Notes under the pieces: model-generated | What the model was told of the DNA's origin: nothing | Database searches by the model: none | What the model saw: the letters and a program-made list of their open reading frames with translations, nothing else | Translations under genes and position numbers: made by a program | Source of the DNA: Shinella daejeonensis | GTDB lineage: Bacteria; Pseudomonadota; Alphaproteobacteria; Rhizobiales; Rhizobiaceae | Reading direction: 5' to 3' | Assembly (NCBI RefSeq): GCF_024281235.1 | Contig: NZ_JAHWXY010000002.1 | Location: 496,001 to 560,000 of the forward strand | Length of the DNA: 64,000 nt | Shown: one piece after another, positions 28,663 through 51,861 of the stretch | Layout: the number at the start of each line of letters is the position of its first letter | Position numbering within the stretch: the first letter of the stretch is position 1

Positions 28663-28716
28663 CGGAGCCACGACGACAAGGCGCAGCATCCAACCCGCAT
28701 GGCAAGAGGTGACCAC

Positions 28717-29721: not shown

Positions 29722-29806
29722 CCCGACGAAAGCCGGGCGTCTCCCGCGCCCGTCGACAAAGCGGCATGCCAGATGGCAGCCGGAGTTCTCAAAGGAGGAG
29801 AATGCC

Positions 29807-30796: not shown

Positions 30797-30809
30797 CCCA
30801 TCAAGCCTT

Positions 30810-30834
30810 GCGAGGCGGCGCAAGGCCGCCTCGC
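30810..30834 (+). other. perfect 10-bp stem-loop after binding-protein gene
   Basis: GCGAGGCGGC and GCCGCCTCGC pair perfectly around a 5-base loop, 13 bp after the binding protein stop and 28 bp before the SDR gene. The bases that follow are C-rich rather than a U-run, so a 3'-end protecting or processing role is more likely than full termination. Confidence 0.65.
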
Positions 30835-30862
30835 CCTTCCCCGAACGCATGAGGCCAGACCG

Positions 30863-31636: not shown

Positions 31637-31672
31637 GCCCGCACCGGCTCTCGCAACTCGCAAGGAGTTATC

Positions 31673-32665: not shown

Positions 32666-32679
32666 CGGGAGGACGCCCC

Positions 32680-33321
32680 ATGCAGACTTTCGACAATGCC
32701 TCCTCGGGCGCCATCGTTCTGGCGATGGCGGACCGGATCGTGGAGAACCGCGCCTACCTCAGCGAGATCGACGGCAAGATCGGCGACGGCGATCACGGCG
32801 TGAACATGGCCAAGGGTTTCGGCATGGCAGCCGACCGGCTGAAGGGCAAGGATGCCTCGCTTGCCGAATCCCTCGATACGCTCGGCACCGTGCTGATGAC
32901 GGAGATCGGCGGCTCGATGGGCCCGCTCTACGGCGTCATGTTCACCGAATTCGCCGAGACCATCGAGACTGTCGATAAGATCGACGCGCCGACCTTCAGC
33001 AAGATGCTGCATGCCGGCCTTTCGGGCATCCAGTCGATCGGCTCGGCCAAGGTCGGCGACAAGACGCTGCTCGATACATTCGTCCCGGCGACCGAAGCCT
33101 TCGATAAGGCGACGGAAGAAGGAAAATCCTTCGCGGAAGCGCTGGTTGCGCTTGTTTCCGCCGCCGAGGCCGGCCGCGATTCGACGATCGACCTCGTCGC
33201 GAAGATCGGCCGCGCCAGCCGTCTCGGCGAACGTTCGCTCGGCGTGCTCGATGCGGGAGCGACGTCCTGCGCGATCATTCTCAAGGAATTGGCGGACGGC
33301 GCCCGGGCGAACATCGCCTGA
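32680..33321 (+). CDS. dhaL: dihydroxyacetone kinase-like subunit DhaL
   Basis: Nucleotide-binding DhaL subunit of 213 residues; the Mg-ATP aspartate motif is KIGDGDHGVNMAKG, and the GGSMGPLYG loop follows. GGGAGGA precedes the ATG at 32680, 14 bp after dhaK. It should supply ATP-dependent phosphoryl transfer to the ketose bound by DhaK. Confidence 0.9.
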   Translation: MQTFDNASSGAIVLAMADRIVENRAYLSEIDGKIGDGDHGVNMAKGFGMAADRLKGKDASLAESLDTLGTVLMTEIGGSMGPLYGVMFTEFAETIETVDKIDAPTFSKMLHAGLSGIQSIGSAKVGDKTLLDTFVPATEAFDKATEEGKSFAEALVALVSAAEAGRDSTIDLVAKIGRASRLGERSLGVLDAGATSCAIILKELADGARANIA

Positions 33322-33358
33322 AACCCGGCATCCGCATATCGGAAGTTCCTCCCAGGAT

Positions 33359-33399
33359 GCGCGGCCCACTCCATCGTGAGGGGCCGCGCGCCGCTTTTT
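33359..33399 (+). terminator. probable intrinsic terminator between the two kinase modules
   Basis: GCGCGGCCC (33359-33367) pairs perfectly with GGGCCGCGC (33381-33389), with a CTC/GAG extension inside, and is followed by GCCG then five T's (33395-33399). It separates the first dhaKL pair from the regulator-DhaK fusion. The U-run begins five bases after the stem, so termination may be partial, giving lower expression downstream. A CCGGTT-GCA-AACCGG palindrome at 33408-33422 just after it may be part of a promoter or operator for the fusion gene. Confidence 0.6.
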
Positions 33400-33469
33400 C
33401 TCTGAATCCGGTTGCAAACCGGCGGCATTGCTTTCATCTTCGCCGCCTGAAGGGGGACCGGCGAAACCG

Positions 33470-35587
33470 ATGGCACTGAAGACTTCCTCGCCGCGCAAGG
33501 GCGGCATCGGCCGGGCAAGCGGAGCGGAGGGCATCGATTCGATACCTCTGCGCTATGGCGACGACCCCTATGTCTGGGCCTGCTGGCTTTATTATGAAGA
33601 CGGCATGACGCAGGGCGAGATCGCCGCGGCGATGGGCGTTTCCCGCGCCACCGTCAACAGCTATCTCGCCGACGCCCGCGAAAAGGGCATCGTCAATATC
33701 TCCATCGAGCCCGCCCGCCTCGCCTCGCTCACCATCGCCCAGGAACTGAAGCGCCATTTCGGCCTTGCCGACTGCCTGGTGGTGCCGAACGACGACGACA
33801 CGCGCCCGCTGATCGGCCGGCTCGGCGCCGCCGGCGCGCAGGCGCTTTCCAAGATCGTCAAGTCGGGAGATACGCTCGCCGTCGCCTGGGGGCGCACCAT
33901 CCTGTCGGTCGGCGAACATCTCGAAACGGGGCCGTTGCAGGATGTCACCGTCGTGCAGGCGACCGGCGGCACCACGGCCAGCTTCGCCTATACGCCGGAA
34001 CTGACGACGGCCGCCGTTGCAAGGGCGATCTCCGCGCGCTGCGTCAACATCACCGCGCCCGCCATCGTCGCTTCGGCGCAAACGCACCGCATGCTGCTCG
34101 AAGAGCCCTTGATCCACGAGCAGTTCGATACGCTCTCCCGCGCCAATCGCATCGTTTTCGGCATCTCGTCGCTGCGCCCCAACTCAACGATCCACACCAG
34201 CGGTTTCTTCGAATCCGTGCCTTTGCAGCATTATCTCGCCAAGGGGGCCGCCGGCGTGCTGGCGGGCCGCTTCATCGATGAGCGCGGCCGCCCGGTCGCC
34301 GGTCCGCTCGATGACCGCACCATCGGGATTTCCCTGGAGATGTTGCGGGGGATCGGGACGCGCGTCGCCGTCGCCGGCGGCTTCGACAAGGTGCCGGCGC
34401 TGCTTGCCGCCCTGCGCGGCGGCTATGTGAGCGTCCTCGTCACGGATGCGGCGACCGGCGCGGGCATCCTGAGAGCCGACGGGGTGACAAGCCTCGACGG
34501 CCGGCTTTCCCAGCGCCAGAAGGGGCCGGCGGCCGCCAATACCTATCGCACCCAGGTGAAGAAGTTCCTCAACAACCCGAACGACGTGGTCGAGGAGATG
34601 CTCGACGGCCTGATCGCCGCCCACAGTGCCTATCTCAAGCCGGTCGGGACCGCGCAACGCGCGCTTGTCGCCCGCAACGGTCCCCGTGCCGGCAAGGTCG
34701 GCCTGGTGATCGGCGGCGGCACGGGACATGAGCCCTGTTTCGTGGGCTATGTCGGCAAGGGGCTCGCCGACGCGGTGGCGATCGGCAATATCTTTTCCTC
34801 GCCGCCGCCCGACCCGATCGTCAAATGCGCCGTCGCCGCCTCGGGTGGGGCCGGCGTGCTCTTCGTCTACGGCAATTACGCCGGCGACGTGATGAATTTC
34901 GAGATGGCCGCCGAAGTCGCCGAGGAACAGGGCATTCCGATCCGCACGATCCTGACGACCGACGACATCGCGTCCTCACCGGTCGAGGACAAGGAGGGAC
35001 GGCGCGGCGTCGCCGGCAATTTCTTCGTCTTCAAGGTGGCCGGCGCGGCCTGCGACCGCGGCATGACGCTCGATCAATGCGAGGCGGTCACGCGCAAGGC
35101 CAATGACCGCACCTATACGGTGGGCGTGGCCCTCGAATCCTGTTCCATGCCCCAGACACGGCGGCACAATTTCGAGATCGGGCCGGACGACATGGAAATC
35201 GGCATGGGAATCCATGGCGAACCGGGCGTCTCGCGCGAGCGGATCCGCACCGCCGACGAGATCGTCGACACGATCATGGACAATATCTTCAAGGAGATGA
35301 AGGCCGAGGCAGGCGACCGCGTGGCCGTGCTGGTCAATTCCTTCGGCGCCACGCCGCTGATGGAACTCTACATCCTCTATCGCCGCGTGGAGCAGCGTCT
35401 TTCCGCCAAGAACATCGCCATCGAGGCGAACTGGGTCGGCCATTACTGCACTTCGCTCGACATGGCGGGGGCTTCCATTTCCATCCTGCATCTTGACTCG
35501 CAACTGGCCGAACTGCTGCATCACCCATGCCAGTCGGCGATCCTGACCATCAACACGCCCGGAACGGACGGCTCGGCGCCGGGCTGA
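33470..35587 (+). CDS. SorC-family transcriptional regulator fused to DhaK
   Basis: A 705-residue two-part protein. Residues about 35-75 form an HTH (YEDGMTQGEIAAAMGVSRATVNSYLADAREKGIV), residues about 85-345 a SorC/DeoR-type sugar-binding domain (GDTLAVAWGRTILSVGEHL; VAVAGGFDKVPALLAALRGGYVSVLVTD), and from about 360 a full DhaK domain (GGGTGHEP, NYAGDVMNF, MGIHGEPG with the covalent His). So the DNA-binding effector sensor and a ketose-binding kinase subunit are one chain. I recall this architecture being annotated in rhizobia but not its mechanism. An upstream TTG frame (33428) is an alternative start. It is followed 29 bp later by a second DhaL. Confidence 0.92.
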   Translation: MALKTSSPRKGGIGRASGAEGIDSIPLRYGDDPYVWACWLYYEDGMTQGEIAAAMGVSRATVNSYLADAREKGIVNISIEPARLASLTIAQELKRHFGLADCLVVPNDDDTRPLIGRLGAAGAQALSKIVKSGDTLAVAWGRTILSVGEHLETGPLQDVTVVQATGGTTASFAYTPELTTAAVARAISARCVNITAPAIVASAQTHRMLLEEPLIHEQFDTLSRANRIVFGISSLRPNSTIHTSGFFESVPLQHYLAKGAAGVLAGRFIDERGRPVAGPLDDRTIGISLEMLRGIGTRVAVAGGFDKVPALLAALRGGYVSVLVTDAATGAGILRADGVTSLDGRLSQRQKGPAAANTYRTQVKKFLNNPNDVVEEMLDGLIAAHSAYLKPVGTAQRALVARNGPRAGKVGLVIGGGTGHEPCFVGYVGKGLADAVAIGNIFSSPPPDPIVKCAVAASGGAGVLFVYGNYAGDVMNFEMAAEVAEEQGIPIRTILTTDDIASSPVEDKEGRRGVAGNFFVFKVAGAACDRGMTLDQCEAVTRKANDRTYTVGVALESCSMPQTRRHNFEIGPDDMEIGMGIHGEPGVSRERIRTADEIVDTIMDNIFKEMKAEAGDRVAVLVNSFGATPLMELYILYRRVEQRLSAKNIAIEANWVGHYCTSLDMAGASISILHLDSQLAELLHHPCQSAILTINTPGTDGSAPG

Positions 35588-35616
35588 CGGCGGCCGGCGG
35601 TAAAGGGGAGGAAAAC

Positions 35617-36252
35617 ATGTCCGAAAATGCGGCACGGGCTCTCGCCAGAATGTTCGGGCGGATGTCCGAGATGATCGAGGCGAGAAAGGACACCCTGTCC
35701 GAACTGGACGGCGCGATCGGCGACGGTGACCATGGCATCACCATGTCCATCGGATTCAAGGCGGTGATCGCCGCCCTCGGCGGTCTCGATCTCGACAAGG
35801 CGAGCCCGGCCGACGTGATGTCCACAGCCGCCGCAGGCTTTCTCGATGCCGTCGGCGCGTCGACCGGGCCGCTCTACGCCACGGGATTCCGCCGCGCCGC
35901 CCAGGCGCTGGCCGGCCGCGACAGCCTCGACCTGGCCGCCTGCACAGACATGCTCGTCGCCATTTCCGACGGCATCCGCGACCGCGGCAAGGCGCAACGC
36001 GGCGACAAGACCATGCTCGACGTCTGGTTGCCGGCAGCCGAGGCCGCGGCGACCGCACTCGCAGATGGCCGGTCAAGACAGGATTTCTGGAAAGCCATAA
36101 CGGTCGCTGCGGACAACGGCGCCGCCGCCACCGCGACGATGGTCGCCACCAAGGGCCGTGCGGCACGTCTTCGCGAACGCTCCCTCGGCCACCCCGATCC
36201 CGGCGCCGCCTCGGCGGCGGCCCTTGTCAAGGCAATCGCGGAAGCGCTTTAA
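35617..36252 (+). CDS. dhaL: second dihydroxyacetone kinase-like subunit DhaL
   Basis: DhaL paralogue of 211 residues with the metal-ATP motif AIGDGDHGITMSIG and STGPLYATG. GGGGAGGAAAAC precedes the ATG. It should pair with the DhaK domain of the fusion protein just upstream; it is clearly distinct in sequence from the first DhaL at 32680. The gene ends 15 bp before the convergent kinase gene. Confidence 0.9.
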   Translation: MSENAARALARMFGRMSEMIEARKDTLSELDGAIGDGDHGITMSIGFKAVIAALGGLDLDKASPADVMSTAAAGFLDAVGASTGPLYATGFRRAAQALAGRDSLDLAACTDMLVAISDGIRDRGKAQRGDKTMLDVWLPAAEAAATALADGRSRQDFWKAITVAADNGAAATATMVATKGRAARLRERSLGHPDPGAASAAALVKAIAEAL

Positions 36253-36266
36253 ACCGCAATCCCGCC

Positions 36267-37604
36267 CTAGCGGTCTGTCCCGTTGCGCACCCGCAGAAAG
36301 TAATCCTCCTCCCCCACCTGGCCGCCTTTCAGTAACACTTCGACACCATTCAGATGCGGGTCTTCGCTGATCAATTCGCATAAATGGCCCTGCTGCACCT
36401 CGTCGAACACCTTGATGGTCAACGCATCGGCGCCGCTATGGCGTATGGAATAGCTTGAGCTGTCCCCTCCGGCAAACACGACACGGGGGATCGCGGTCTG
36501 GCGTCTCACGGCGCCCATGAGGGCTGCATAAACCCGTCCGATATGCTGCGGCGGAATATCCTCGAACGCCTCGCGATCCACGACGTTGCCGCGCGCGGTA
36601 TAGACAATGGTCGGCCGTCCCGCCTCCAGGTTCTCCAGGACTTTCGGCTCAATGGCATCCACCGCGTCCGAGGCGGTGCGTTCATCGCATAGTCCCGCAG
36701 GATCGAGTGCGATCCCCGCCCATCCTGCCGCGAGCGCCGCGTCGATCTGGCGACCCGTCTGGATCGCACAACTTCCCGAGAGCACCAGAAGATTATCCAC
36801 CGGCGGGATGGTGGTCCGGACCGTCTCCAGCTCGTTTTCCGCCCTCATGCCGGCCAGGGTCCGGCCGAGATGCTGCGCAAAACCCTGCGCGGCGATCACA
36901 AACAGCGGGTGTATGGCGCTGCGTTCCCACAACGCCCGTACAACGGCGGCGACATCGTCGTTCGTGACACCGTCGAAGACGATCCCCTTCCCCTCGCTGA
37001 AGAGGGTCGCGATCCGGGCCGTCAACGTCCCGGGCGATCCGATTTCCGGCAGGCAGATATTGGCAAAGGGCAATGCGCACAGCGTATCCAGATGCAGGCG
37101 AAGATCGGCCTCGCGCATCGGGGTTCTTGGATGGCTGCTCATGCCCGGATGGCGATCGAGCCGGAGCACATCCTTGCCGAAGCGGGCGTAATGGTTGCCG
37201 AAGGCGGTATAGCGACCGAAATCCGGGGTCGCGGCCAGAACCGCCGTGTCGAAGTCCCGCCCGCCACGGGTGATCATTTCCGCCGCAAATCCGAAATTGC
37301 CCGTCTCCGGGGCGGAATCGAAAGTCGAGCAGATCTTGTACTGCAATATCCGGCAACCGAGGGCCTTCAGCGCATCGAAGGCGGGCTGGATTTCCACCGC
37401 CATCTGCTCGCAGTTCATGGCGCGCGCGGTTCCGGCAAAACCGATGACATCCAGTTGTCCGGCCGCCTCGCGAAGCTCCGCGATCGGCGGGACCTTGAGA
37501 TAGAGCCGTGTCCGCAATCCGCTTCGGTGAAACTGCGCCAGGTTCTCGGACGAGCCCGTGAAATCGTCACCGTAAAAGCCGACCAGGGGGCGCGCAGCCG
37601 TCAT
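36267..37604 (-). CDS. four-carbon acid sugar kinase family protein (DUF1537; OtnK/DtnK/OiaK-like)
   Basis: Kinase of the DUF1537 family, 445 residues. N-terminal substrate domain signature GFYGDDFTGSSENL (residues 9-22) and C-terminal nucleotide-binding motifs VFAGGDSSS and LKGGQVGEEDYF are visible. Characterised members phosphorylate threonate, erythronate or 3-oxo-isoapionate-type acid sugars. GGGAGAG precedes the start at 37604. It is divergent from an SDR, and the same cluster has a RuBisCO-like protein; kinase plus RuBisCO-like decarboxylase is the OiaK/OiaX pairing of D-apiose/apionate catabolism. Exact substrate is inference. Confidence 0.88.
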   Translation of the reverse strand: MTAARPLVGFYGDDFTGSSENLAQFHRSGLRTRLYLKVPPIAELREAAGQLDVIGFAGTARAMNCEQMAVEIQPAFDALKALGCRILQYKICSTFDSAPETGNFGFAAEMITRGGRDFDTAVLAATPDFGRYTAFGNHYARFGKDVLRLDRHPGMSSHPRTPMREADLRLHLDTLCALPFANICLPEIGSPGTLTARIATLFSEGKGIVFDGVTNDDVAAVVRALWERSAIHPLFVIAAQGFAQHLGRTLAGMRAENELETVRTTIPPVDNLLVLSGSCAIQTGRQIDAALAAGWAGIALDPAGLCDERTASDAVDAIEPKVLENLEAGRPTIVYTARGNVVDREAFEDIPPQHIGRVYAALMGAVRRQTAIPRVVFAGGDSSSYSIRHSGADALTIKVFDEVQQGHLCELISEDPHLNGVEVLLKGGQVGEEDYFLRVRNGTDR

Positions 37605-37646
37605 TCCATCTCTCCCGACGCTTCGGATAAACCGCAATGTATTTGC

Positions 37647-37705
37647 TTGACATCAATCTAGCGCTAAGCTCATAACTGCACAAGATCATACCTCATACCT
37701 TATAC
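37647..37705. promoter_or_regulatory. promoter and repeated ATACCT half-sites between divergent kinase and SDR
   Basis: TTGACA (37647-37652) and CATAAC (37671-37676, 18-bp spacer) form a plausible promoter for the SDR gene. Just downstream ATACCT occurs twice (37688-37693, 37695-37700) followed by TATAC, matching the half-site of the inverted repeats before the GntR gene and before the transporter/RuBisCO-like operon. This suggests control by the GntR regulator at 38677. Confidence 0.5.
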
Positions 37706-37733
37706 ATATAATCCAGTTTCGGGAGGATGGACA

Positions 37734-38525
37734 ATGCGACTCTCAGGTAAGACGGCGATCGTCACCGGCGCGGCCCGCGGGATCGGCAAAGCGATTGCCC
37801 TTGCGTTTGCCGGCCAGGGCGCACAGGTCGTCGTCAGCGACCGGGACGAAGATGCGGCGAAGACCACGGCTGCCGAAATCGGGCCGGCCGCCATCGCCGT
37901 GCGCGCCGACATCTCGGTTGACGAGGATGTCGACGGGCTTGTGAAGCAGGCCGTTGCGCAGTTCGGCAGGATCGACATTCTCGTCAACAATGCCGGCATC
38001 GGCGCAACGACCCTTTTCCTCGAAAGTTCGCGCGAGGAATTCGAGCGGGTCGTACGCATCAATCTTACGGGAACGTTCCTCGTATCCCAGGCTGTCGCAC
38101 GAACGATGGCGAAGCGGAAAAGCGGCAGCATCATCAATATTGCCTCGCTTTCCGGCCAGAAGGGCGGGGTCGGCCGCTCCGCCTATGGCGCGTCCAAGGC
38201 AGGCGTCGAACTTCTCAACAAGGTCATGGCGGTCGAACTCGCCGACTTCGGAATCAACGTGAACGCAATTGCGCCGGGACCCATTCTGACCGAAGTCTCC
38301 AGAACGATGCACACGCTGGAGACACGCGAGGCCTATCATCGTCTCGTGCCGCAACGTCGCTATGGCGAGCCCGAGGAAATCGCCGACGCCGCCGTTTTTC
38401 TCGCCAGCGATGAAGCCCGCTACATCACCGGGCACACGCTGAATGTGGATGGCGGCTTCCTCGCAGCGGGCCTTTTGTTTCCCTTCGATCCCAAGACGTC
38501 GACCAAGCTGGCCGACGAAAAATAG
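37734..38525 (+). CDS. SDR-family oxidoreductase, probable acid-sugar dehydrogenase
   Basis: Short-chain dehydrogenase of 263 residues: TGAARGIG cofactor motif, NNAG, catalytic Ser/Tyr/Lys (ASLSGQ, YGASK). GGGAGGATGGACA precedes the ATG. It is divergent from the DUF1537 kinase and just upstream of the GntR gene, so it probably oxidises the sugar acid to the 3-oxo compound that the kinase phosphorylates. The final ~20 residues (LLFPFDPKTSTKLADEK) are a charged tail beyond the usual SDR end. Confidence 0.85.
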   Translation: MRLSGKTAIVTGAARGIGKAIALAFAGQGAQVVVSDRDEDAAKTTAAEIGPAAIAVRADISVDEDVDGLVKQAVAQFGRIDILVNNAGIGATTLFLESSREEFERVVRINLTGTFLVSQAVARTMAKRKSGSIINIASLSGQKGGVGRSAYGASKAGVELLNKVMAVELADFGINVNAIAPGPILTEVSRTMHTLETREAYHRLVPQRRYGEPEEIADAAVFLASDEARYITGHTLNVDGGFLAAGLLFPFDPKTSTKLADEK

Positions 38526-38600
38526 GGGCGGCAAGCCGCCTTGAGGGCGCGGGTGATTTGTTCAGCCGCTCGCGCCACTTGCCCTTCCGATATCCCATTG

Positions 38601-38622
38601 AATGGTATAATGTATTACCATT
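38601..38622. promoter_or_regulatory. GntR autoregulatory operator overlapping a TATAAT -10
   Basis: AATGGTA and TACCATT form a perfect 7-bp inverted repeat with an 8-base spacer in the short gap before the GntR gene. A perfect TATAAT (38606-38611) lies within it, so a bound repressor would block the promoter. The half-site GGTAT/ATACC is shared with 43947-43964 and 37688-37700. Confidence 0.6.
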
Positions 38623-38676
38623 ATTTCCTCTCTCCAGAATTGGTGTCGCCGGGGAGCCGTTGGAAGGGAGACCGTA

Positions 38677-39378
38677 TTGGCCGAACCTAAGAAGAACCAG
38701 ACCCGCCTCGAGTTCGCGCTGGACTACATCACGGGGGAAATCGCGCGCGGCAATCTGAAAGCCGGCGACAAGCTCCCCAATGAGAAGGACCTCGCCGAGC
38801 AGCTGGGGATCAGTCGCACCCCTATTCGCGAGGCGATGAAGACCCTCGCGATCGCAGGCCTCATCGACATCCGGCACGGTCATGGCAGTTACGTGCGCGA
38901 CGGGCCCGGCGTGCCCGCGATGCCGCTAACCCTCTTCCAGCTCTACTTGCAGGATTCGACGCCCGAAATGCTCATGGAGCTTCGGGACATCTTCGACCGC
39001 AACTGTACGGAACTTGCCGCACAGCGGCGAACCGAAGATGATCTGGCGAAGATGCGTGATTGCATTCAGAGACTGCGCCAGCTTTCCCGGCAGGCCGATC
39101 CCGATCTGGACGAGATGCTGAAGGCCGACCTCGATTTCCACCGCGCGGTCTATGTCGCCACGGGCAACAAGCTGATCGTGACGATCGCCGAGTTCGTCTT
39201 GAGCATGGTTGCGCCCTGGGTGAAGAAATCACTCGACCGGAGCGGCCGTATCCGCGCGGTCGATCTGCATGAGCAGATGTATGAATCCATTCGCAACCGC
39301 ACGGTCGGCCAGGAAAACCGCTCCAGCGTCGAGGCGAACATGCAGCACTTCATGCAATCCCTCGATACGCAAAACTGA
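38677..39378 (+). CDS. GntR-family transcriptional regulator (FadR/FCD subfamily)
   Basis: Regulator of 233 residues. N-terminal winged HTH: LKAGDKLPNEKDLAEQLGISRTPIREAMKTLAIAGLIDI; the C-terminal all-helical FCD ligand domain has the usual Asp/His metal ligands region (LDFHRAVYVATGN). Translation seems to begin at a TTG (38677) preceded by AGGGAGA; no in-frame ATG precedes the HTH. It sits between the SDR and the transporter/RuBisCO-like operon and probably represses both through the shared inverted repeat. Confidence 0.88.
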   Translation: MAEPKKNQTRLEFALDYITGEIARGNLKAGDKLPNEKDLAEQLGISRTPIREAMKTLAIAGLIDIRHGHGSYVRDGPGVPAMPLTLFQLYLQDSTPEMLMELRDIFDRNCTELAAQRRTEDDLAKMRDCIQRLRQLSRQADPDLDEMLKADLDFHRAVYVATGNKLIVTIAEFVLSMVAPWVKKSLDRSGRIRAVDLHEQMYESIRNRTVGQENRSSVEANMQHFMQSLDTQN

Positions 39379-39405
39379 CGCGTTCTTCCGCATCCGACAG
39401 AAACA

Positions 39406-39430
39406 GACGGCCGCCTCCGGGGCGGCCGTC
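39406..39430. terminator. bidirectional intrinsic terminator between convergent genes
   Basis: GACGGCCGCC (39406-39415) pairs perfectly with GGCGGCCGTC (39421-39430) around a 5-base loop, then CTGATTTT follows on the plus strand; on the minus strand TGTTTCTGT follows. It lies between the GntR stop and the binding protein stop, so it can end both transcripts. Confidence 0.8.
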
Positions 39431-39449
39431 CTGATTTTCGCCGTCTGGA

Positions 39450-40247
39450 TTAATTCAGGATCTCTGCCGGAATATCCAGATCGTGATAGGCCTTGTAGGC
39501 TTCATTGAGCTTGCCGTTCGCGGCGTTTTCGGCAATCCACTCATTCAGCTTTTCGGCAAGACGCGTCTCCCCTTGCTTCACCGCCATGGCGATGGGGAAC
39601 TGGTTGATCACGATCTTGGCCTCGAACTGCTTGGCCGTGGAGCGCTCGTTGATGGCGCGCATCTGCGGATCAGCCAGACCGAGGTAAATCGCCTGGCCGG
39701 ATATCGCCGCCGTGATCGCGGTCGCGTCGTCGTCATAGCGAACGACGTTGAAGCCGAATTCCGGCGCCATTTCCGTAAGCGCGATATCCTGCGTCGTGCT
39801 GCGCACCACGGCGATCGCCTTGCCCGAAAGATCCGTCCACTCCTTGGCGGTATCCTCCGTCGGGGCGATGACCGTCGTGCGGATGAACGAATAGGGCCGG
39901 GTGAAATCCACCGCCTTCTTGCGCTCCTCCGTGACCGAAAGCGACGAGATGACCACATCCGCCTTGTCGGTGTTGATGTTCGGAATACGGGTCGGACCGG
40001 TGGTGTTCACGAACTCCAGTTCGACGCCCCAATCGGCGGCAAGCAGCTTGGCGACCGCGACGTCCGACCCGGTCGGCTGCATCGATCCGTCGAGCATGCC
40101 GTAGGGCGGGATACCCATATCCGTGGCGACGCGGATTTTCTTGGTGCTCATGATCGTGTCCAGCACATCCGCCATCGCCGGCGCGGCGATGACAAGCCCC
40201 ACCAGTGCGGCTGCGACAAAATTGAACTCACGACGTCCCAGTTTCAT
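39450..40247 (-). CDS. family-3 periplasmic binding protein of acid-sugar cluster importer
   Basis: Amino-acid-type (family 3) binding protein of 265 residues with a signal peptide (MKLGRREFNFVAAALVGLVIAAPAMA). The mature region starts KKIRVATDMGIPPYGMLDG and has DVVISSLSVTEERKKAVDFTRPY. GGGAGAAGGAA precedes the start. It is the last gene of a five-gene operon with two HisQM-like permeases, an ATPase and a RuBisCO-like protein, so although the family is amino-acid-typed, the ligand is probably the acid sugar. Confidence 0.88.
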   Translation of the reverse strand: MKLGRREFNFVAAALVGLVIAAPAMADVLDTIMSTKKIRVATDMGIPPYGMLDGSMQPTGSDVAVAKLLAADWGVELEFVNTTGPTRIPNINTDKADVVISSLSVTEERKKAVDFTRPYSFIRTTVIAPTEDTAKEWTDLSGKAIAVVRSTTQDIALTEMAPEFGFNVVRYDDDATAITAAISGQAIYLGLADPQMRAINERSTAKQFEAKIVINQFPIAMAVKQGETRLAEKLNEWIAENAANGKLNEAYKAYHDLDIPAEILN

Positions 40248-40350
40248 TTCCTTCTCCCATGGTTGCCGGGCCCTTAAGGGCATTTCGGCGTTGCAATATC
40301 GGTTCTCTGTTCCGCGGCGGCGTCTTGCGCCGCAGATCCCGTCCACCCGT

Positions 40351-41613
40351 TCAGTTCCTGTATTCGCCCTGTGGATCGAACTTGCCGAGCGAGGCTTTCA
40401 ATTCGGGGTGGGACCGGGCGAATTCATACAGCGGGATGCCGGCCACGGCCGCTTCCCACGCCTGCCGCACCGCCAGCACGCCGGCGGCGGGCCCTTGCGG
40501 ATGACTGACGATCCCGCCGCCGCAGAGATACATGTGATCGATGGTTTCGCCCGTGCGCCGATAGGTTTCCGGCGCCTGACCGCCCCACTGGCCGGAACAG
40601 ACGACCGGCAAGGGACGGTCCTTGCCGTCGAAGATCGGCGTGCTGATCGCCTTGAACGACTCGACGAAGCTCTCGTCGGGCTCCCAATATTTGACCCGGA
40701 TGCCGTTGATCTGGAACTGGTCGACGCCGAGCAGGCGCCAGAACTGCTGCCAAACCTTGAAATCGAAGCCGATGGCCGGATGGCGGGTGAGCATGTCCCA
40801 GCCGTTGCGATGGGCATGAAGAACGATGTTCGAGCGCTTTCGCAGGAAATGGAATGCCGCCATGCCGACGGAATTGATATTGACGACCGCGCAGTTTCCG
40901 CCGGCCTTCACGACCATGTCGTGATTGCGAACCATTTCGTCCGGATCGGTAGCGGAGATGCCGAAGGCGTACATCACCTTCTTGCCGGTGGCCTGTTCGT
41001 GATCCCTGATCTTCGGCATCACATGCGCAATGCGTTCCTTCAGGGGCGAATAGACGGGGCTCATCAACTTCTCATCGTCCTTGATGAAGTCGACACCGGA
41101 TTTCAATAACGCCCCGACAAGGCCTGCGGTCTCGTCAGGGCGCAATCCGAGAGCGGGTTTCAGGATCGTTCCGATGATCGGCCGTCCGTAGACATTGGTA
41201 AGCTGCCGGCTGCCGTCGATCCCGAATTGCGGCCCCGCATAGGCTGCCTTGTAGTCCTCCGGCAGCTTCATATCCACGACCCGCAGTCCCGTGAGGCCGC
41301 GGATGGAGAAGGCTCCGCCGATGGCGATCGTCATCAACGCCGCGAGATCCGTTCCGACCGCATCCAGGGGAAAGGCGATATCCGCAACGCCGCGGTTGAC
41401 GGGAGCCTCCGGAGCTTCGGGCCAACTGGGGCGCTCCCCCGACGAATGGTCGCGGACGGAAAGGACACGGGCGGCGACCCGCGTCTTCAGTTCCTCGGTT
41501 TCCCCCGGCACGGCGACAAAGGTTCCCGTCGACTGATCGCTGGCGATTTTCTCCGCCATACGCTCGACGCTGCCCGGCGTTTCGATGGCGTAGGTCACGA
41601 CGATCTGCGACAC
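40351..41613 (-). CDS. RuBisCO-like protein (form IV; OiaX/OiaT-like)
   Basis: RuBisCO large-subunit superfamily protein of 420 residues. Equivalents of catalytic residues are present: Lys152 in GTILKPALGL (RuBisCO Lys175), Lys178/Asp180/Glu181 in DFIKDDE (carbamylated Lys201, Asp203, Glu204), His266 or His268 and Arg269 in LHAHRNG, Lys308 in VKYW (Lys334) and Ser340 in CSGQ (Ser379). RuBisCO Lys177 is Ala and the His327 region is changed (QFQINGI), so it is not a carbon-fixing RuBisCO. In apiose/apionate catabolism such proteins decarboxylate or cleave 3-oxo-isoapionate 4-phosphate after a DUF1537 kinase, and both partners are here. A GTG start at 41613 follows AGGAGC, one base after the ATPase stop. 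Confidence 0.9.
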   Translation of the reverse strand: MSQIVVTYAIETPGSVERMAEKIASDQSTGTFVAVPGETEELKTRVAARVLSVRDHSSGERPSWPEAPEAPVNRGVADIAFPLDAVGTDLAALMTIAIGGAFSIRGLTGLRVVDMKLPEDYKAAYAGPQFGIDGSRQLTNVYGRPIIGTILKPALGLRPDETAGLVGALLKSGVDFIKDDEKLMSPVYSPLKERIAHVMPKIRDHEQATGKKVMYAFGISATDPDEMVRNHDMVVKAGGNCAVVNINSVGMAAFHFLRKRSNIVLHAHRNGWDMLTRHPAIGFDFKVWQQFWRLLGVDQFQINGIRVKYWEPDESFVESFKAISTPIFDGKDRPLPVVCSGQWGGQAPETYRRTGETIDHMYLCGGGIVSHPQGPAAGVLAVRQAWEAAVAGIPLYEFARSHPELKASLGKFDPQGEYRN

Positions 41614-41614
41614 C

Positions 41615-42361
41615 TCACAGCTCCTGCGCTGCAAAACGCTGCAATTCCGGCGTGCGGGGCGCATCGAGAATGCTACCGTGGCCCTTTTCCCAGATCTTGC
41701 CCTGGTGCATGAACACGAGCTGATCGGCGATACGCCGCGCAAATCCCATTTCGTGGGTCACCATGACCATGGTCATGCCATCGGCGGCCAGCCGCTCGAT
41801 GACACGCAGCACCTCCCCCGTCAGTTCCGGATCGAGCGCGGATGTCACTTCGTCGAACAGCATGACCTTGGGCTGCATGGCCAGCGACCGCGCGATCGCC
41901 GCACGCTGCTGCTGTCCGCCCGACATCTGCTCGGGATAGGCGTCGAACTTGTCGCCGAGCCCCACCTGCGCGAGCGTCGCCCGGGCCAGATCGGCGGCCT
42001 CCTTCTTCGGCAGCTTCTTGACCGAGCGGGGAGCCAGCATGATGTTCTCCCCGATCGTCAGATGCGGAAAGAGATTATAGCTCTGGAAAACGATGCCGAC
42101 ATCCAGGCGGAGCTTGCGCAATTCCAGGGCCGGATCGGTCACGACGTGGCCGCAGACCTCGATATAGCCGGCATCGACCTTTTCGAGGCGATCCATGCAG
42201 CGCAGGGCCGTGCTCTTGCCGGAGCCCGACCGGCCGATGAGAACGGTGACCTGCCCGCGCGCCACTTCGAAGCTGACGCCATGCAGGACCTTCACCTGGC
42301 CGAAGCTCTTTTCGACGTCACGCAGAACGATGACCGCCTTGTTGTCCGGAGAAATATTCAT
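41615..42361 (-). CDS. polar amino acid-type ABC ATP-binding protein of acid-sugar cluster
   Basis: ATPase of 248 residues with Walker [10 protein letters not shown], signature [14 protein letters not shown], Walker [13 protein letters not shown] and H-loop VTHEMGFA. It is placed between the permeases and the RuBisCO-like gene, whose GTG start is one base beyond this stop, implying coupled translation of importer and enzyme. Confidence 0.92.
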
Positions 42362-42372
42362 GTTGTCCTCGC

Positions 42373-43032
42373 TCAAGCCTTCGCCATGCCCCGGGCCATG
42401 CGGCGCTCCAGGCGCCTGCTGAGAACCGACAGGGGAAAGCAAAGAAGGAAGTAGATGATCGCCACCGCCACAAAGGTGACGAAGGGCTGGAACGTCGAAT
42501 TGTTGATGAGCTGGCCGGCCCGCGTCAGGTCCACGAAACTGACGGCCGAGGCGAGCGAGGTGTTCTTGATGATCTGGACCATGAAGCCCACGGTGCCGGG
42601 CGTCGCATTCCTGACGGCTTGCGGAACGATCACCTTGAACATGCGCTGCCAGCGCGTGAGCGCGAGGCATTCGGCCGCCTCCCACTGCGCCTTCGGCACG
42701 GCTTCGAGGCTGCCGCGCCAGAACTCGCCCAGATAGGCGCCGACCCAGACCGTCATGGAGATCGTGGCGGCCAGCAGCGGCGAGACCGGAACGCCGATGG
42801 CCGGCAGGCCGAAATATCCCGTGAACAGCAGAACGAGCAGCGGAATGCCCTGCACCAGCTCGATGTACCAGGCCGCGAGCCTGCGCACGAAAGGGATGGG
42901 CGAGATGCGCAGAAGGGCGATCAGAAGCCCCATCAGCCCGCCGCCGAGGAATGCGCAGACGGACAGAATGACGGTCCAGATCGCACCTTCGAGCAGGAAC
43001 TGAATATGGATGAAACCAAAAGTCGGAACCAT
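42373..43032 (-). CDS. polar amino acid-type ABC permease of acid-sugar cluster
   Basis: Permease of 219 residues, starting [25 protein letters not shown], with the conserved loop [23 protein letters not shown]. It lies 8 bp after the first permease and 11 bp before the ATPase on the same strand. Confidence 0.9.
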
Positions 43033-43040
43033 GGCGAACC

Positions 43041-43724
43041 TCAGAGCGGTGTGCCGAGCCGGCGGCGGCGGGGGAAGGCGACCATGCCGATCAGGTTGAA
43101 GATCTGGCGCATGATGACCGACAGGATGAAATACATGACCCCGATCACGAGGTAGGTTTCCAGCGGCCGAAACGACACGCCCTGGATATAGTTCGCGTTT
43201 CCGGTGAGTTCGGGAACCGAGATCTGCGATGTAATGGACGATGCCAGCATCAGCAGGATGAACTGACTGCTGAGAGACGGGAAAACCCGCTCCGCCGCAG
43301 GGAAAAGAACGACGTGCCAATAGGTCTGAAGCCGCGAGAGGCCGAGGCATTCGGCCGCCTCCCACTGCCCTGCATGCACCGAATCGAAGCCAGCCCGCAT
43401 GATTTCGCCCGTATAGGCTCCGACGTTGATCGTAAGCGCCAGAAGCGCCACCGTGATCGCGCTCAGGGTAAAGCCCAGCGTCGACAGGCCGAAGAAGATC
43501 AGGAAGATCTGCACGAGGAACGGCGTGTTGCGGATCGCTTCGACATAGATGGCGCAAATCGCCGAAACGATCCGGAAGCGGGAATTCCTGCCGGCGGCGC
43601 AAAGCGTTCCGATCAGGAAACCCGACACGGTCGCGGCGACAGAAAGCAGCAGCGTGACGATCGCGCCGTCAAGCAGCATCGGCCAGCGTTCAAAAATCGG
43701 GCTGAAATCTAGCGACACTTCCAT
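43041..43724 (-). CDS. polar amino acid-type ABC permease, first gene of acid-sugar operon
   Basis: Permease of 227 residues, [29 protein letters not shown], with loop [33 protein letters not shown] precedes the ATG at 43724. As first gene of the operon it faces the 690-bp upstream region that holds the predicted GntR operator. Confidence 0.9.
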
Positions 43725-44414
43725 GTCCTTTCCATGCACATGTGCCGGGGGTTGAAGGGGGAGCCGTCTCGGTCCGGCCCCGTCCTGCATCACAGGTTAT
43801 CTCGAAGCCGCATCCCGCCAGGCAACCCGATGCGGATCGGTCAGCGAATGCGCCATGCCAACCGGCAGCAAAGTCGCCGTTCGTTCCTGACACCGATCTT
43901 GCATGAGTCCCCCCGACCGACCGATCCTCCCGTCGATGAGGATGCAAGGTATAAGGTCATACCTATTTTGACAAGAGATTTCTTTTCAGTTCTTCCTCAT
44001 CTTCAGGCAGAACCCGTGAAGGTCCGCCGTCGGGAGAGTGATCCGAAACGCAAGACGAGACCTGGAGTAGCTGTCAAAGTCTCCGGGCGAGGGTTTTATC
44101 AGGTGCTCTTATACGCAAACCATTCGTTCAGGGAACGGGCATCACCATGCCATCGCGACGGTCTGCGGCCTTGCCATCGATCCGACACCACGGCCGCGAA
44201 ACTGGGGATGGAAAGAAACTGCCGCCGGCTTTTACCTGAGCAATTAACGGTCGCCTGTAAGGGGCAAAACCGTAAGCCGCGCTCGAACCGTTTCAGCCGG
44301 TATCGGCGCGGCTTTCCTTGCATGAAGCGCCTTCGACCACCCGGCAGCCCGGCCCCGGCGGCGATGGTTTCACCGTCGCGCGCCTGAAGCTCACGCCTGT
44401 CGGCCAGGCCCCTG
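43725..44414. promoter_or_regulatory. 690-bp gene-free region with GntR-type operator and a stem-loop
   Basis: No convincing gene is seen. At 43947-43964 AGGTAT and ATACCT form a perfect 6-bp inverted repeat with a 6-base spacer, in an AT-rich patch that also has TTGTCA and TATACC on the minus strand, so it is the likely promoter-operator for the transporter/RuBisCO-like operon. At 44274-44314 AAGCCGCGC pairs with GCGCGGCTT around a long, itself structured loop; it lies downstream of the carnitine operon end and could terminate it. The rest is unremarkable. Confidence 0.55.
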
Positions 44415-45650
44415 TTATCGCAGAAGCGCCTTCAGGTCGGTGGCGGGATCGCGGACGATCTCCGCGCCGGGGGATTTTCCCGCTTCGATCAGCCGTTTTG
44501 CGACCATATAGACGCGGGGATCGTTCATCGCATCGACGGCGAGCAGTTCGTCGGCGCGATAATACCAGTGGGACACGCTGCCCTCCGCGCCGATGCGGGT
44601 CACCACGCTATCGTAGCCCGTCGAAAGACCCGCGATCTGTAGCTTGACGTCATATTGATCCGACCAGAACCATGGCTTGGCCTCATATCGGACCGGTTGC
44701 CCGGTCAGCATCCTGGCGATCGCCTCGGCCTGCTCGATGGCGTTGCCGACGCTTTCCAGACGGATGCGCCGGGACCGCCACGGAAAGGAGGCGCAATCGC
44801 CTGCCGCATAGATCTCGGGATCGGAGGTCCGGCAGTTCTCGTCGACGGCGATGCCGTCTTCGATCACAAGGCCCGCGGCTTCGGCAAGCCCGGCGTTCGG
44901 GATGACGCCGATGCCGGCGATGACGAAATCGACCGGGATGAGAGAACCGTCGACCAGTTGCGCGGCACGGACATGGCCCTCTTCGCCGACAAGCGCCTTC
45001 AGCGCCGCTCCTTCCCGTAGCGTGACGCCCTTGCCGCCATGCAGATCGCGGAAGTAGGCGGAGGTTTCGGCGCAGGCGACGCGCTGGAGAATGCGCGGCG
45101 CGGCTTCGATGATCGTCACCGTCAACCCCAGCTTGGCCGACACCGCCGCCGCCTCAAGGCCGATATAGCCGCCGCCGACGATGAGGACATGCTGGCCGGG
45201 GCGGAACCGCTCGGCCATGGCGTTGATGTCGGCGAGATTGCGGACCGCGAAGACGCCATCGAGCCGCCCGCCGATCTCGTCTGGCAGGGTTCTCGGCCGC
45301 GCGCCGGTCGTCAGGATCAGGCGATCATAGGGAACGCTCGATCCGTCCGCGAAGCCGACCGCTTTCTTCCCGCGATCGATGAACGCCGCCGGCCGGGAGA
45401 GCCGCAGATCGATCCCGCGCTCCCGATAGAAGTCCATCGGGCGGAAATAGAGGCGGTCTTCCGTGATCTCGCCGAGCAGATAGCCCTTCGACAAGGGGGG
45501 CCGCTGGTAGGGCGGATGCGCTTCGTCACCGATCAGCGTCACGGGGCCGCGATGCCCCAGGTCGCGCAGACGCGCGCAGGCGGTGAAACCCGCCTGCCCT
45601 GCGCCGATCACCACGATACGGGCATCGGGATCGATTGGGTCGTCGCTCAT
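44415..45650 (-). CDS. FAD-dependent ferredoxin/rubredoxin-type reductase
   Basis: Flavoprotein of 411 residues resembling reductases of Rieske oxygenase and P450 systems: FAD motif VIGAGQAGFTACARL near the N-terminus, NADH motif VGGGYIGLEAAA mid-protein, and YAAGDCASFPW for FAD binding. It has no iron-sulfur domain, so a ferredoxin from elsewhere is probably needed. It is the last gene of the carnitine-type operon and likely supplies electrons to the Rieske oxygenase at 50590. Confidence 0.87.
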   Translation of the reverse strand: MSDDPIDPDARIVVIGAGQAGFTACARLRDLGHRGPVTLIGDEAHPPYQRPPLSKGYLLGEITEDRLYFRPMDFYRERGIDLRLSRPAAFIDRGKKAVGFADGSSVPYDRLILTTGARPRTLPDEIGGRLDGVFAVRNLADINAMAERFRPGQHVLIVGGGYIGLEAAAVSAKLGLTVTIIEAAPRILQRVACAETSAYFRDLHGGKGVTLREGAALKALVGEEGHVRAAQLVDGSLIPVDFVIAGIGVIPNAGLAEAAGLVIEDGIAVDENCRTSDPEIYAAGDCASFPWRSRRIRLESVGNAIEQAEAIARMLTGQPVRYEAKPWFWSDQYDVKLQIAGLSTGYDSVVTRIGAEGSVSHWYYRADELLAVDAMNDPRVYMVAKRLIEAGKSPGAEIVRDPATDLKALLR

Positions 45651-45667
45651 GGAACCCCCTTGTCGTT

Positions 45668-46603
45668 TCAGTTCGCGCGAAGCGGTGCCATCGCCTTCTG
45701 GATGCTGGCGATCAGCGCATCGCGCTGCGCTGAAAGATCCGCCGGCGACTGGCCGTTGGCCTCCTGTGTCACGCCGACGACAAGCGTCTCGGCGATGGAG
45801 GGGTCGAGATGCAGGACGCCGAGATCGTCCCACCAGCGATTGAAGCTGTCCGTATAGCGTTCGCAGAAAGCGGCAAGACCGCCCTCGCCGGCGCCCAGAT
45901 GGAAGAGCATGGTCGGCCCCATCGCCGCCCAGCGTAGCCCGGGGCCGGCCCACATCGCCTTGTCCACATCCTCGACGCTGGCGACGCCGGACTTGACGAG
46001 GTGAATGGCCTCGCGCCAGACCGCCGCCTGAAGCCGGTTCGCCACATGGCCGGGCACCTCGCGGTTGACGCGGATCGTGACCTTGCCCACGGCTTCATAG
46101 AAGCGTTCCGCCGCCTCGACGACGCCGGCGGCGGTATGCTCGTTGCCCATGACCTCGACCAGCGGGATCAGGTGCGGCGGGTTGAAGGGATGTCCGAGCA
46201 CGAGGCGGCCGGGATCCTTCCATCCCTCCTGCATCTCGCTGAGCGTGAGGCCCGAGGCCGAGGTCGCGACAACGGCGTCAGCGCTGAGCGAGGGCTCGAT
46301 TTCCGCATAGAGCGCGTGCTTGATCGCGATGCGCTCGGGAACATTCTCCTGAACGAAGGACACACCCTCGACGGCCTCGGCGGCCGAGCCGCAGAAGCGG
46401 ACGCGATCGGGGCTTCCGCCTTTCACCAGGCCGAGGCTTTCGAGGGTCGGCCAGGCGCGGTCGATGTAATCGCGGACATTTTTCTCCGTTGCCGGCGCGA
46501 TGTCATGCACCGCAACATCCCGCCCCGAGGCGAGGAAAAGCGCCGTCCAGCTCGCACCGATCACGCCTGCGCCCAATACTGCAGTCTGCTTGAATTCGAT
46601 CAT
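45668..46603 (-). CDS. L-carnitine dehydrogenase (3-hydroxyacyl-CoA dehydrogenase family)
   Basis: NAD-dependent enzyme of 311 residues oxidising L-carnitine to 3-dehydrocarnitine. The N-terminal motif is VLGAGVIGASWTALFLASG, followed by TSASGL and GHPFNPPHLIPLVE, and a helical C-terminal domain with GPGLRWAAMGP, the pattern of carnitine dehydrogenases. Some rhizobial versions carry a C-terminal thioesterase; this one does not. Its start overlaps the preceding SDR's stop by one base. Confidence 0.88.
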   Translation of the reverse strand: MIEFKQTAVLGAGVIGASWTALFLASGRDVAVHDIAPATEKNVRDYIDRAWPTLESLGLVKGGSPDRVRFCGSAAEAVEGVSFVQENVPERIAIKHALYAEIEPSLSADAVVATSASGLTLSEMQEGWKDPGRLVLGHPFNPPHLIPLVEVMGNEHTAAGVVEAAERFYEAVGKVTIRVNREVPGHVANRLQAAVWREAIHLVKSGVASVEDVDKAMWAGPGLRWAAMGPTMLFHLGAGEGGLAAFCERYTDSFNRWWDDLGVLHLDPSIAETLVVGVTQEANGQSPADLSAQRDALIASIQKAMAPLRAN

Positions 46604-47358
46604 CAGAATAATCCAGGTTGAAGGGGAGAGGCGGCGGTCAATCCGCCGTCGATGGTAATGCATTGACCGGTTACAAAGGCGCTTTCGGCTGAAATCAGCC
46701 AGGCGACGGCATTGGCGATATCCTCCGGCTTTCCGAAGCGGCGGGCCGGATGGCGGGCAAGCGAATCGTCTTGCGCCTTCTGCGGATCGCGCGCCAGCGC
46801 AAAACCGTTTTCAGCCATTTCCGTCATGATCCAGCCGGGACTGACCGCATTGCAGCGCACGTTCGGGCCGTGATCGACGGCAATCGACCGCGTGAGGCTG
46901 TGAACGAAGCCTTTCGAGGCGTTGTAGATGGCCATCGAAGGATCCGCCACCATGGCCGAGATCGAACCGAGGTTCACGATATCGCCACCGCGCTCGGCCA
47001 TCAGCGGCAGGACCTCGCGGCACATGTTGAAGACACCCCGGCAATTGGCGCCGATGAGCCGGTCCCAGTCGTCGTCGGTCGTCTCCGCCACCGTCTTTTC
47101 GATCTGGATGCCGGCGTTGTTCACGAGCACGGCGACATCGCCGTGCCGGGCCGCGCCGGCGACGATGTGCCTTGCGTCTTGCGGACGGGAAACATCGCCG
47201 GTGATCCAGACGATATCCCGGGGCAAGTCCGCCGGGCGCTCGCCCCGCCCGCAGGTGACGACAGTCGCCCCGTCGCGATGCAGCCGCTCGACGATGGCGC
47301 GCCCGATGCCCCGTCCGCCGCCGGTGACGATGGCGACCCTTCCTCTTGCGTCCGTCAT
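46603..47358 (-). CDS. SDR-family oxidoreductase in carnitine operon
   Basis: Short-chain dehydrogenase of 251 residues: TGGGRGIG, NNAGIQIEKT, and catalytic Ser/Tyr/Lys (LGSISA, YNASK). The start at 47358 is nine bases after GGAG; an ATG at 47367 is an alternative. It lies between the aldehyde dehydrogenase and carnitine dehydrogenase genes. It may oxidise a stereoisomer or derivative of carnitine, but no substrate motif is visible. Confidence 0.8.
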   Translation of the reverse strand: MTDARGRVAIVTGGGRGIGRAIVERLHRDGATVVTCGRGERPADLPRDIVWITGDVSRPQDARHIVAGAARHGDVAVLVNNAGIQIEKTVAETTDDDWDRLIGANCRGVFNMCREVLPLMAERGGDIVNLGSISAMVADPSMAIYNASKGFVHSLTRSIAVDHGPNVRCNAVSPGWIMTEMAENGFALARDPQKAQDDSLARHPARRFGKPEDIANAVAWLISAESAFVTGQCITIDGGLTAASPLQPGLF

Positions 47359-47373
47359 GGTTTCCATCTCCGG

Positions 47374-49727: not shown

Positions 49728-49728
49728 G

Positions 49729-50529: not shown

Positions 50530-50589
50530 CACATGCCTCCTTTTCCCAGACTTTTCCTGTTCGGTTTTCCGATATGCAACCGGCGCGCC

Positions 50590-51729: not shown

Positions 51730-51861
51730 GGTGGCGTCTCCCAAGCCAGAGGCGACGTCTTTGTCGCCGTTCACGATGACCTAGCTTCACGCCAACCGGG
51801 GGGCCTTTCTATGCTTTGTACGCCATCGGTTTAGCTTTTTTCGCCATCCTCTTTGCCATCA

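Follow-up and report, generated by a model that had tools for sequence, protein, structure and literature searches.

The gene set described here lies in a 64,000-nucleotide stretch of the Shinella daejeonensis assembly (the window; C22:496001-560000 of a genome of 4.66 Mb in 37 contigs) and brings together a RuBisCO-like protein (RLP1), a DUF1537 kinase (kin1), an SDR dehydrogenase, a GntR/FCD regulator and an importer of the polar-amino-acid type (PAAT). The original prediction, made from the letters of the DNA, had named these genes, and all of them are present at or very near the places it assigned to them (Table 1). Permease A, permease B, the ATPase, RLP1 and the binding protein follow one another in one minus-strand operon; its first four genes overlap or abut, and the binding-protein gene begins about 100 bases past RLP1. 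The PAAT architecture is complete, with an SBP_bac_3 binding protein, HisQM-type permeases and an ATPase. Further along the same strand lies kin1, divergent from the SDR gene, which is followed by the GntR/FCD gene. The unit is real and coherent; it represents OiaX-type catabolism in a variant form, served by an unusual importer, and the gene set forms a compact, probably jointly regulated module of a soil bacterium. We read it, with confidence evenly divided, as serving the use of a branched C5 sugar acid that probably resembles isoapionate or apionate, by means of import, an SDR, a kinase, decarboxylation by RLP1 and control by GntR.

Table 1. Genes and putative operators of the unit, with the basis of each assignment.
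Feature	Position in window	Strand	Basis
kin1, DUF1537 kinase, R-type clade	36267..37604	-	Pfam SBD_N and NBD_C; OiaK model 244 bits vs cut-off 700; groups with R-type kinases
GGTATR direct repeats, divergent kinase/SDR promoter, putative GntR operator	37687..37708	-	motif scans; binding inferred
SDR dehydrogenase, proposed beta-keto acid maker	37734..38525	+	family match; 77-90% identity to SDRs of R-type loci where matched
GntR/FCD regulator, TTG start	38677..39378	+	family match; 66-85% identity to GntR genes of R-type loci
Family-3 periplasmic binding protein	39450..40244	-	SBP_bac_3; 82% identity in G707; +8 Asp missing, extra Arg
RLP1, RuBisCO-like protein, OiaX family, GTG start	40351..41613	-	NF042437 738.5 bits vs cut-off 700; trees; motifs
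PAAT-type importer ATPase	41615..42385	-	family match; 89% identity in G707
PAAT permease B, HisQM-type	42373..43074	-	HEQRo_perm_3TM above cut-off; 87% identity in G707
PAAT permease A, HisQM-type	43041..43724	-	HEQRo_perm_3TM above cut-off; 84% identity in G707
GGTATR inverted repeat upstream of the importer-RLP operon, putative GntR operator	43948..43964	-	motif scans; binding inferred

Judged by its sequence, RLP1 belongs to OiaX. It passes the cut-off of the curated OiaX model NF042437, and its top-scoring solved structure is 3nwr, named just 'a rubisco-like protein'. A tree of 83 RLPs separated a 72-row OiaX clade from 11 outgroup rows with full support and nested RLP1 among the canonical OiaX proteins, beside those of loci L012 and L023 (support 100/91). 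This tree lacked the RLP of L011, a locus among the three closest in identity; a second tree of 46 rows included it, and there RLP1 grouped with L011, L012 and L023 (99/99); long-branch warnings were attached to the output of both trees. Identity reaches 77% to canonical rows versus 66-69% to those of the R-type loci, which are variant OiaX loci on Rhizobium, Sinorhizobium and Agrobacterium plasmids; among plasmid records (best 40 of 255) 77% was likewise the highest value. The Lys201/Asp203/Glu204 equivalents, predicted to be kept, are present in KDDE, and HAHR, the loop-6 Lys, SGQWGG and CGGG are retained as in the OiaX rows, with Gln at a position that is His in the three outgroup rows shown; the equivalence of these motif residues to RuBisCO positions is presumed. 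Among the positions that at least 95% of 71 OiaX rows have in common, RLP1 deviates at seven, none of them a catalytic residue of the compared motifs. With the cut-off, two trees and the motifs in agreement, the predicted membership in the OiaX family also survived a check for clustering outside OiaX and OiaT, and this membership supports decarboxylation of 3-oxo-isoapionate 4-phosphate as the probable activity. A substrate other than isoapionate had been suggested as a possibility; the OiaX motifs of RLP1 and its origin in the canonical clade lend that suggestion no support.

Compared with the RLP of L012, RLP1 gave a nonsynonymous rate (dN) of 0.166, a synonymous rate (dS) of 0.94 and a dN/dS of about 0.18, indicating purifying selection, and four pairs of canonical rows gave about 0.09-0.13; with dS near 1, these ratios are rough. 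With its open frame, intact motifs and this ratio to L012, RLP1 was ruled out as a pseudogene. Recombination between R-type and canonical RLPs was unsupported, RLP1 being nearer to the canonical rows in 10 of 11 sliding windows. Convergence of RLP1 with the R-type RLPs, considered as a sign of a shared new substrate, was found in five columns; the same count in nine control rows ranged from 0 to 5, and the measure was not used. RLP1 itself occurred in no other genome sampled; in the genus sample, where 17 of 21 genomes (S. daejeonensis included) have an RLP match, the best value elsewhere was 73%.

The kinase, SDR and regulator of the unit match the R-type loci. Eleven R-type stretches were read (L068, L069, L071, L072, L126-L128 and L170-L173), L126 corresponding in length and coordinates to the record of S. 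fredii plasmid NZ_CP024310.1. All 11 have kinase, BKACE-like, CUT2 and RLP matches; the SDR is found in ten (not in L128, yet in L159 of the same contig), as is a W-type GntR gene (the exception being L170, where a different GntR gene is annotated). In L170-L173, where NCBI annotates oiaX, the GntR protein (66-90% identity), the SDR (77-90%), and the kinase (49-65%) are orthologues of those of our unit, and the promoter motif is the same. These loci differ from it in having a CUT2 sugar importer, aldo/keto reductases, a BKACE-like gene, an MBL-fold protein and a separate RLP clade. The MBL-fold protein (Pfam Lactamase_B), labelled 'N-acyl homoserine lactonase family' in the R-type records, was present in all five stretches searched for it (L128, L170-L173). 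By sequence comparison the unit is thus a mosaic: its kinase, SDR and GntR are of R-type, and its RLP stems from the canonical OiaX clade, where it occupies a long branch. L170-L173, on plasmids of bean rhizobia and agrobacteria, also share a gene with a product of about 150-170 aa that gave no Pfam or NCBIfam match in the one copy scanned.

In five of the 11 R-type stretches (L068, L071, L072, L172 and L173) a TPI-like and an RpiB-like gene stand ahead of the GntR gene; the RpiB-like protein of L068, encoded directly before it, passes the curated DerI cut-off (255.8 vs 240). The genes tkt, fbp and fba precede this pair in the plasmid loci L172 and L173. Such neighbours point to a C4 product, and the gene content of the R-type loci suggests a route from a sugar through lactone, acid, keto acid, phosphate and erythrulose phosphate to erythrose 4-phosphate.

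The original prediction had likened the kinase to OiaK; this is not supported as it stands, since kin1 falls far below the cut-off of the curated model NF042436 and sits in a clade of its own. All 12 DUF1537 kinases scanned miss this cut-off, the other 11 with 259-539 bits, among them two that adjoin canonical OiaX genes, namely kin2 of the same genome (437.1 bits) and the kinase of L104 (468). A missed cut-off alone therefore says little, and the separate clade is the better evidence. By identity kin1 is closest to the R-type kinases (49-65%) and that of genome G294 (52%); the remaining kinases of the comparison share 33-39% with it. In the kinase tree of 66 rows (a quick tree with Shimodaira-Hasegawa-like approximate likelihood ratio, SH-aLRT, support and no bootstrap; the L069 kinase is in no tree) kin1 nests in the R-type clade, and the R-type kinases with that of G294 split from the other 54 rows with an SH-aLRT of 100; kin1 shares no clade with the kinases adjoining canonical OiaX. 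The kin1-type kinase is rare: beyond its own genome, one of 397 genomes of the order sample (G294, where it stands beside an RLP and an ApnO-like gene) has a homologue of at least 50% identity, the family sample has three genomes out of 394 with a match beyond E 1e-95, and among the 376 genomes of the class sample no match goes beyond E 1e-90. The G294 locus (L124) is a further combination of the same parts, with an RLP of 488 bits for OiaX (below 700), an R-like kinase 52% identical to kin1, an ApnO-like gene, a Gfo/Idh gene and a TRAP importer.

About 295 kb away on the same contig lies a second, canonical OiaX locus with rlp2 (771.9 bits, OiaX), kin2, a Gfo/Idh-type gene, a CUT2 importer and an ApnO-like gene. 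The name ApnO for the latter is our assumption; its homologue in genome G707 (82% identical) is PGDH_C by Pfam. RLP1 and rlp2 are 70.6% identical, kin1 and kin2 35%. A survey of the best 80 OiaX loci of those listed, in named genomes, gave 74 with a canonical-type kinase, four with an R-type kinase (L068, L069, L071, L072) and two with no kinase match (L053, L090). The absence of isomerase genes, as originally predicted, is true of the annotated stretch but not of the genome, which has a TPI-like gene (C11:615786-616514) beside one for DerI (C11:615308-615736; 250.3 bits vs cut-off 240). The pair presumably corresponds to LerI and DerI, and with both present elsewhere in the genome the product of the unit is probably L-erythrulose 1-phosphate.

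The unit looks acquired, if its composition and surroundings are a guide. Its G+C content is 0.615, with flanks of 0.64 on each side, and the operon to its left (CUT2 importer, DthD-family dehydrogenase, DhaK/DhaL) has counterparts of 81-95% identity on three Shinella plasmids, and in none of these plasmid stretches was a kinase, RLP, family-3 binding-protein or PAAT-permease match found.

A PAAT importer is not a usual part of OiaX loci: none of the 80 best loci, some of which end at contig borders, matches the binding protein or the permeases. Across 394 genomes of the family and 387 of the order, a binding protein more than 60% identical was found beyond the own genome in G707 alone. There, the genes of all four importer proteins (82-89% identical) neighbour that of the SDR (90%) and an ApnO-like gene, and 10-21 kb beyond them the contig carries an R-type locus. 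As G707 has no RLP gene between the importer ATPase and the binding protein, RLP1 appears to have been inserted into the importer operon in the window.

The surroundings of more distant homologues were compared in two sets, the 13 best (E 1e-75 or better: L160-L169, L196, L198, L199) and 12 lower-scoring ones (E 1.6e-71 to 4.2e-49), whose identities overlap near 48-50%. RpiB and a HIBADH-like gene stand beside 13 of the 13 best-scoring homologues (L160 supplied both queries), whereas the lower-scoring 12 gave no RpiB and one weak HIBADH-like match. A GntR-type regulator, RpiB, a HIBADH-like dehydrogenase and a PAAT importer thus form a cluster conserved at all 13 loci, probably an uncharacterised sugar-acid pathway; in G285 about 4 kb separate this cluster from genes for an RLP, a DUF1537 kinase and an ApnO-like protein.

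The binding protein reaches no amino-acid equivalog cut-off. At position eight after the glycine of the SGQ motif (+8), Asp never occurs in 44 aligned rows, the window protein having Ala, while the Arg of TRIPN is invariant in all 44; several of these rows repeat the gene of another row, and the pocket positions come from the alignment. By an ungapped count, the solved relatives AncCDT-1, AncQR and 6svf have Asp at +8 and no TRIPN Arg. We take this Asp to be the holder of the ligand's alpha-amino group, as in LAO, HisJ and GlnBP. The window importer shares the four-gene architecture and families of the amino-acid importers of the HisJQMP/GlnHPQ type and differs from them in the missing +8 Asp, the extra Arg and the sugar-type enzymes beside its nearest homologues. 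It appears closer to an importer of sugar acids than to one of amino acids, and the prediction that it serves an acid sugar is probably correct, given the G707 context, the missing Asp and the RpiB/HIBADH-like neighbours.

Joint control of the two transcription units had been predicted, and they do have a regulator-like motif in common. Pairs of GGTATR at most 25 bp apart occur twice in the 64 kb, at 37687/37694 and 43948/43958, one in the kinase/SDR promoter and one ahead of the importer-RLP operon, so that both promoters of the unit have a pair. In 40 first-order simulations the mean was 0.125 pairs and the maximum 2. The patterns were designed after the sites had been seen, and the scans for them establish just that no other close match exists. 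No paired site was found for the left operon (27184-36252) in the window scan. Similar repeats lie upstream of the kinase in the R-type stretches L068, L072, L126-L128, L170, L171 and L173. The best NCBIfam match of the GntR protein is NanR, below cut-off, and NanR binds GGTATA repeats. It is likely that both units share a putative operator, to which GntR would bind.

From these parts the following route may be drawn. The PAAT importer would take up the branched acid, which the SDR would oxidise to the beta-keto acid 3-oxo-isoapionate. Phosphorylation at C4 by kin1, as proposed from its family and repeated association, would be followed by conversion of 3-oxo-isoapionate 4-phosphate to L-erythrulose 1-phosphate by RLP1, in the manner of OiaX. 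The TPI-like isomerase (probable LerI) and DerI, encoded on another contig, could then lead to erythrose 4-phosphate, and the GntR protein would govern both transcription units through the GGTATR repeats. The lack of an aldose dehydrogenase or lactonase match and the other type of importer fit uptake of the acid itself, which could be isoapionate, apionate or a homologue; sequence cannot tell these apart. Of the pathway first predicted, the type and probably the importer stand, whereas the kinase and the missing isomerases had to be revised in part.

The OiaK/OiaX branch belongs to oxidative D-apiose catabolism (Carter et al. 2018, as summarised in PMC6302742). Our unit resembles it in an RLP above the OiaX cut-off, a DUF1537 kinase, and DerI with a TPI-like gene in the genome; it differs in a kinase from another clade, an SDR in place of an ApnO-like enzyme, and the PAAT importer. 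No match to Gfo/Idh, AKR, ApnO-like or MBL-fold references was found in the unit, which thus does not contain the whole oxidative D-apiose pathway. With the hamamelose pathway (Kim et al. 2018, as summarised in PMC8914248 and cited also in PMC10176493) it has in common the logic of a branched sugar acid and an RLP of Brucella/Ochrobactrum in the OiaX tree region, but the Brucella/Ochrobactrum RLPs lie in canonical-type loci, and a C6 substrate is not indicated for the unit. For rlp mutants of R. etli and R. phaseoli, PMC8914248 reports wild-type-like growth in minimal-medium subcultures and states that full growth was not regained with an aspartate analogue or extra air. Among the papers searched on RLPs, DUF1537, apiose/apionate, hamamelose and PAAT sugar-acid import, none was seen to describe the unit, the R-type locus or a PAAT sugar-acid importer.

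Several observations weigh against the C5-acid pathway proposed above. RLP1 has an end branch of 0.58 in the 83-RLP tree, where the median is 0.078, and of 0.62 in the 46-row tree, a length that could reflect shifted specificity; its forced placement with seven R-type RLPs was rejected weakly (approximately unbiased test, p-AU 0.042). The TPI-like/DerI pair is confined to five of the 11 R-type stretches, and the R-type aldo/keto reductases, BKACE and lactonase-like gene are unmatched beside the unit. The nearest importer homologues adjoin RpiB and HIBADH-like genes, not OiaX, and their substrate may be another sugar acid. The argument from the +8 Asp is weakened by one 6h30 domain with Asp at +7 and by HMMER, which aligns the window Asp at +9 to the AncQR Asp through a one-residue gap. 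The isoapionate assignment depends on the OiaX model and on the pathway reported by Carter et al. (2018). Our confidence was slightly lowered by the uninformative OiaK cut-off and the overlapping identities of the two importer sets.

The canonical locus with its ApnO-like gene makes a second route partly redundant, and D-apionate might be what is imported, with the canonical ApnO-like enzyme making 3-oxo-isoapionate, kin1 and RLP1 duplicating kin2 and rlp2, and the SDR being accessory. The presence of ApnO-like, Gfo/Idh, kin2 and rlp2 genes in the same genome, the derivation of RLP1 from canonical OiaX and the ApnO-like gene adjoining importer and SDR in G707 would all suit this account. It is nevertheless doubtful, as the SDR recurs in 10 of the 11 R-type stretches whereas an ApnO-like match was seen in none but L159 (the extension of the G707 stretch), and kin1 and GntR differ from their canonical counterparts. 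An ordinary amino-acid or opine importer that came to share an operon with RLP1 by an accident of transposition is unlikely. Amino-acid-binding proteins are among the closest solved relatives by sequence of the binding protein, which keeps both the STTQ motif and the conserved Arg in its TEER stretch, and the HMMER pairing of the +9 Asp points the same way; such an accident would leave unexplained RLP1 within the operon, the regulator-like motif in common, the importer again beside the SDR in G707, the RpiB and HIBADH-like genes at all 13 best-scoring loci and, in the pocket, the absent +8 Asp and the invariant Arg.

Hamamelonate (2-carboxyarabinitol) or another C6 acid, considered as first-choice substrate, was demoted to an improbable alternative, as the R-type neighbour genes indicate a C4 product (DerI, TPI-like, tkt, fbp, fba). 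Here the SDR would make a 3-keto acid and the kinase would phosphorylate it; RLP1 would then act by decarboxylation or oxygenation, yielding a pentulose phosphate or else 3-phosphoglycerate with glycolate. For an SDR, oxidising a 2-C-hydroxymethyl aldonate at its C3 would be chemically direct, RLP1 is fast-evolving, several R-type plasmids come from Phaseolus isolates, and bean is rich in 2-carboxyarabinitol. An RLP oxygenase has been reported in the D-hamamelose pathway of Ochrobactrum (Kim 2018, as summarised in PMC8914248), but the RLPs of Brucella (the former Ochrobactrum group) lie in canonical-type loci, so that the reported activity is not specific to the unit, and RLP1 scores above the OiaX cut-off.

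Whatever the acid, R-type loci on plasmids of bean-nodule rhizobia suggest a plant-derived substrate. Automatic annotation would stop at OiaX and an amino-acid importer, while the loci compared here suggest a clade of DUF1537 kinases that the curated OiaK model does not take in, an SDR replacing the known oxidoisomerase step and a possible sugar-acid subclade of PAAT importers. If true, this would widen the assumed cargo of PAAT importers and provide a natural example of how an enzyme of the RuBisCO fold can be recruited by new partners. A bolder version, which we regard as a long shot, has a PAAT subclade devoted to branched sugar acids, the DUF1537 clade and SDR as another entry to RLP decarboxylation, and RLP1 perhaps shifting to a new acid such as 2-carboxyarabinitol, which provides the skeleton of the RuBisCO inhibitor that plants themselves make.

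Both flanks of the unit carry further catabolic genes. The left operon (27184-36252, plus strand) encodes the CUT2 importer, a GolD/DthD-family dehydrogenase (404.6 bits vs 286) and two DhaK/DhaL pairs; it is a tetritol/erythrulose operon, the product of which may join the RLP pathway at erythrulose phosphate. Within it, a single open reading frame (33428-35587, plus strand) encodes both a sugar-binding regulator domain and a kinase domain of the DhaK type, a known fusion, with relatives annotated likewise. On the other side, a minus-strand cluster at 44415-51774 comprises a Rieske oxygenase, a flavin reductase, a 3HCDH-type dehydrogenase, an ALDH, two SDRs and a BKACE-like gene (Pfam for three genes) and presumably resembles carnitine or betaine-type catabolism.

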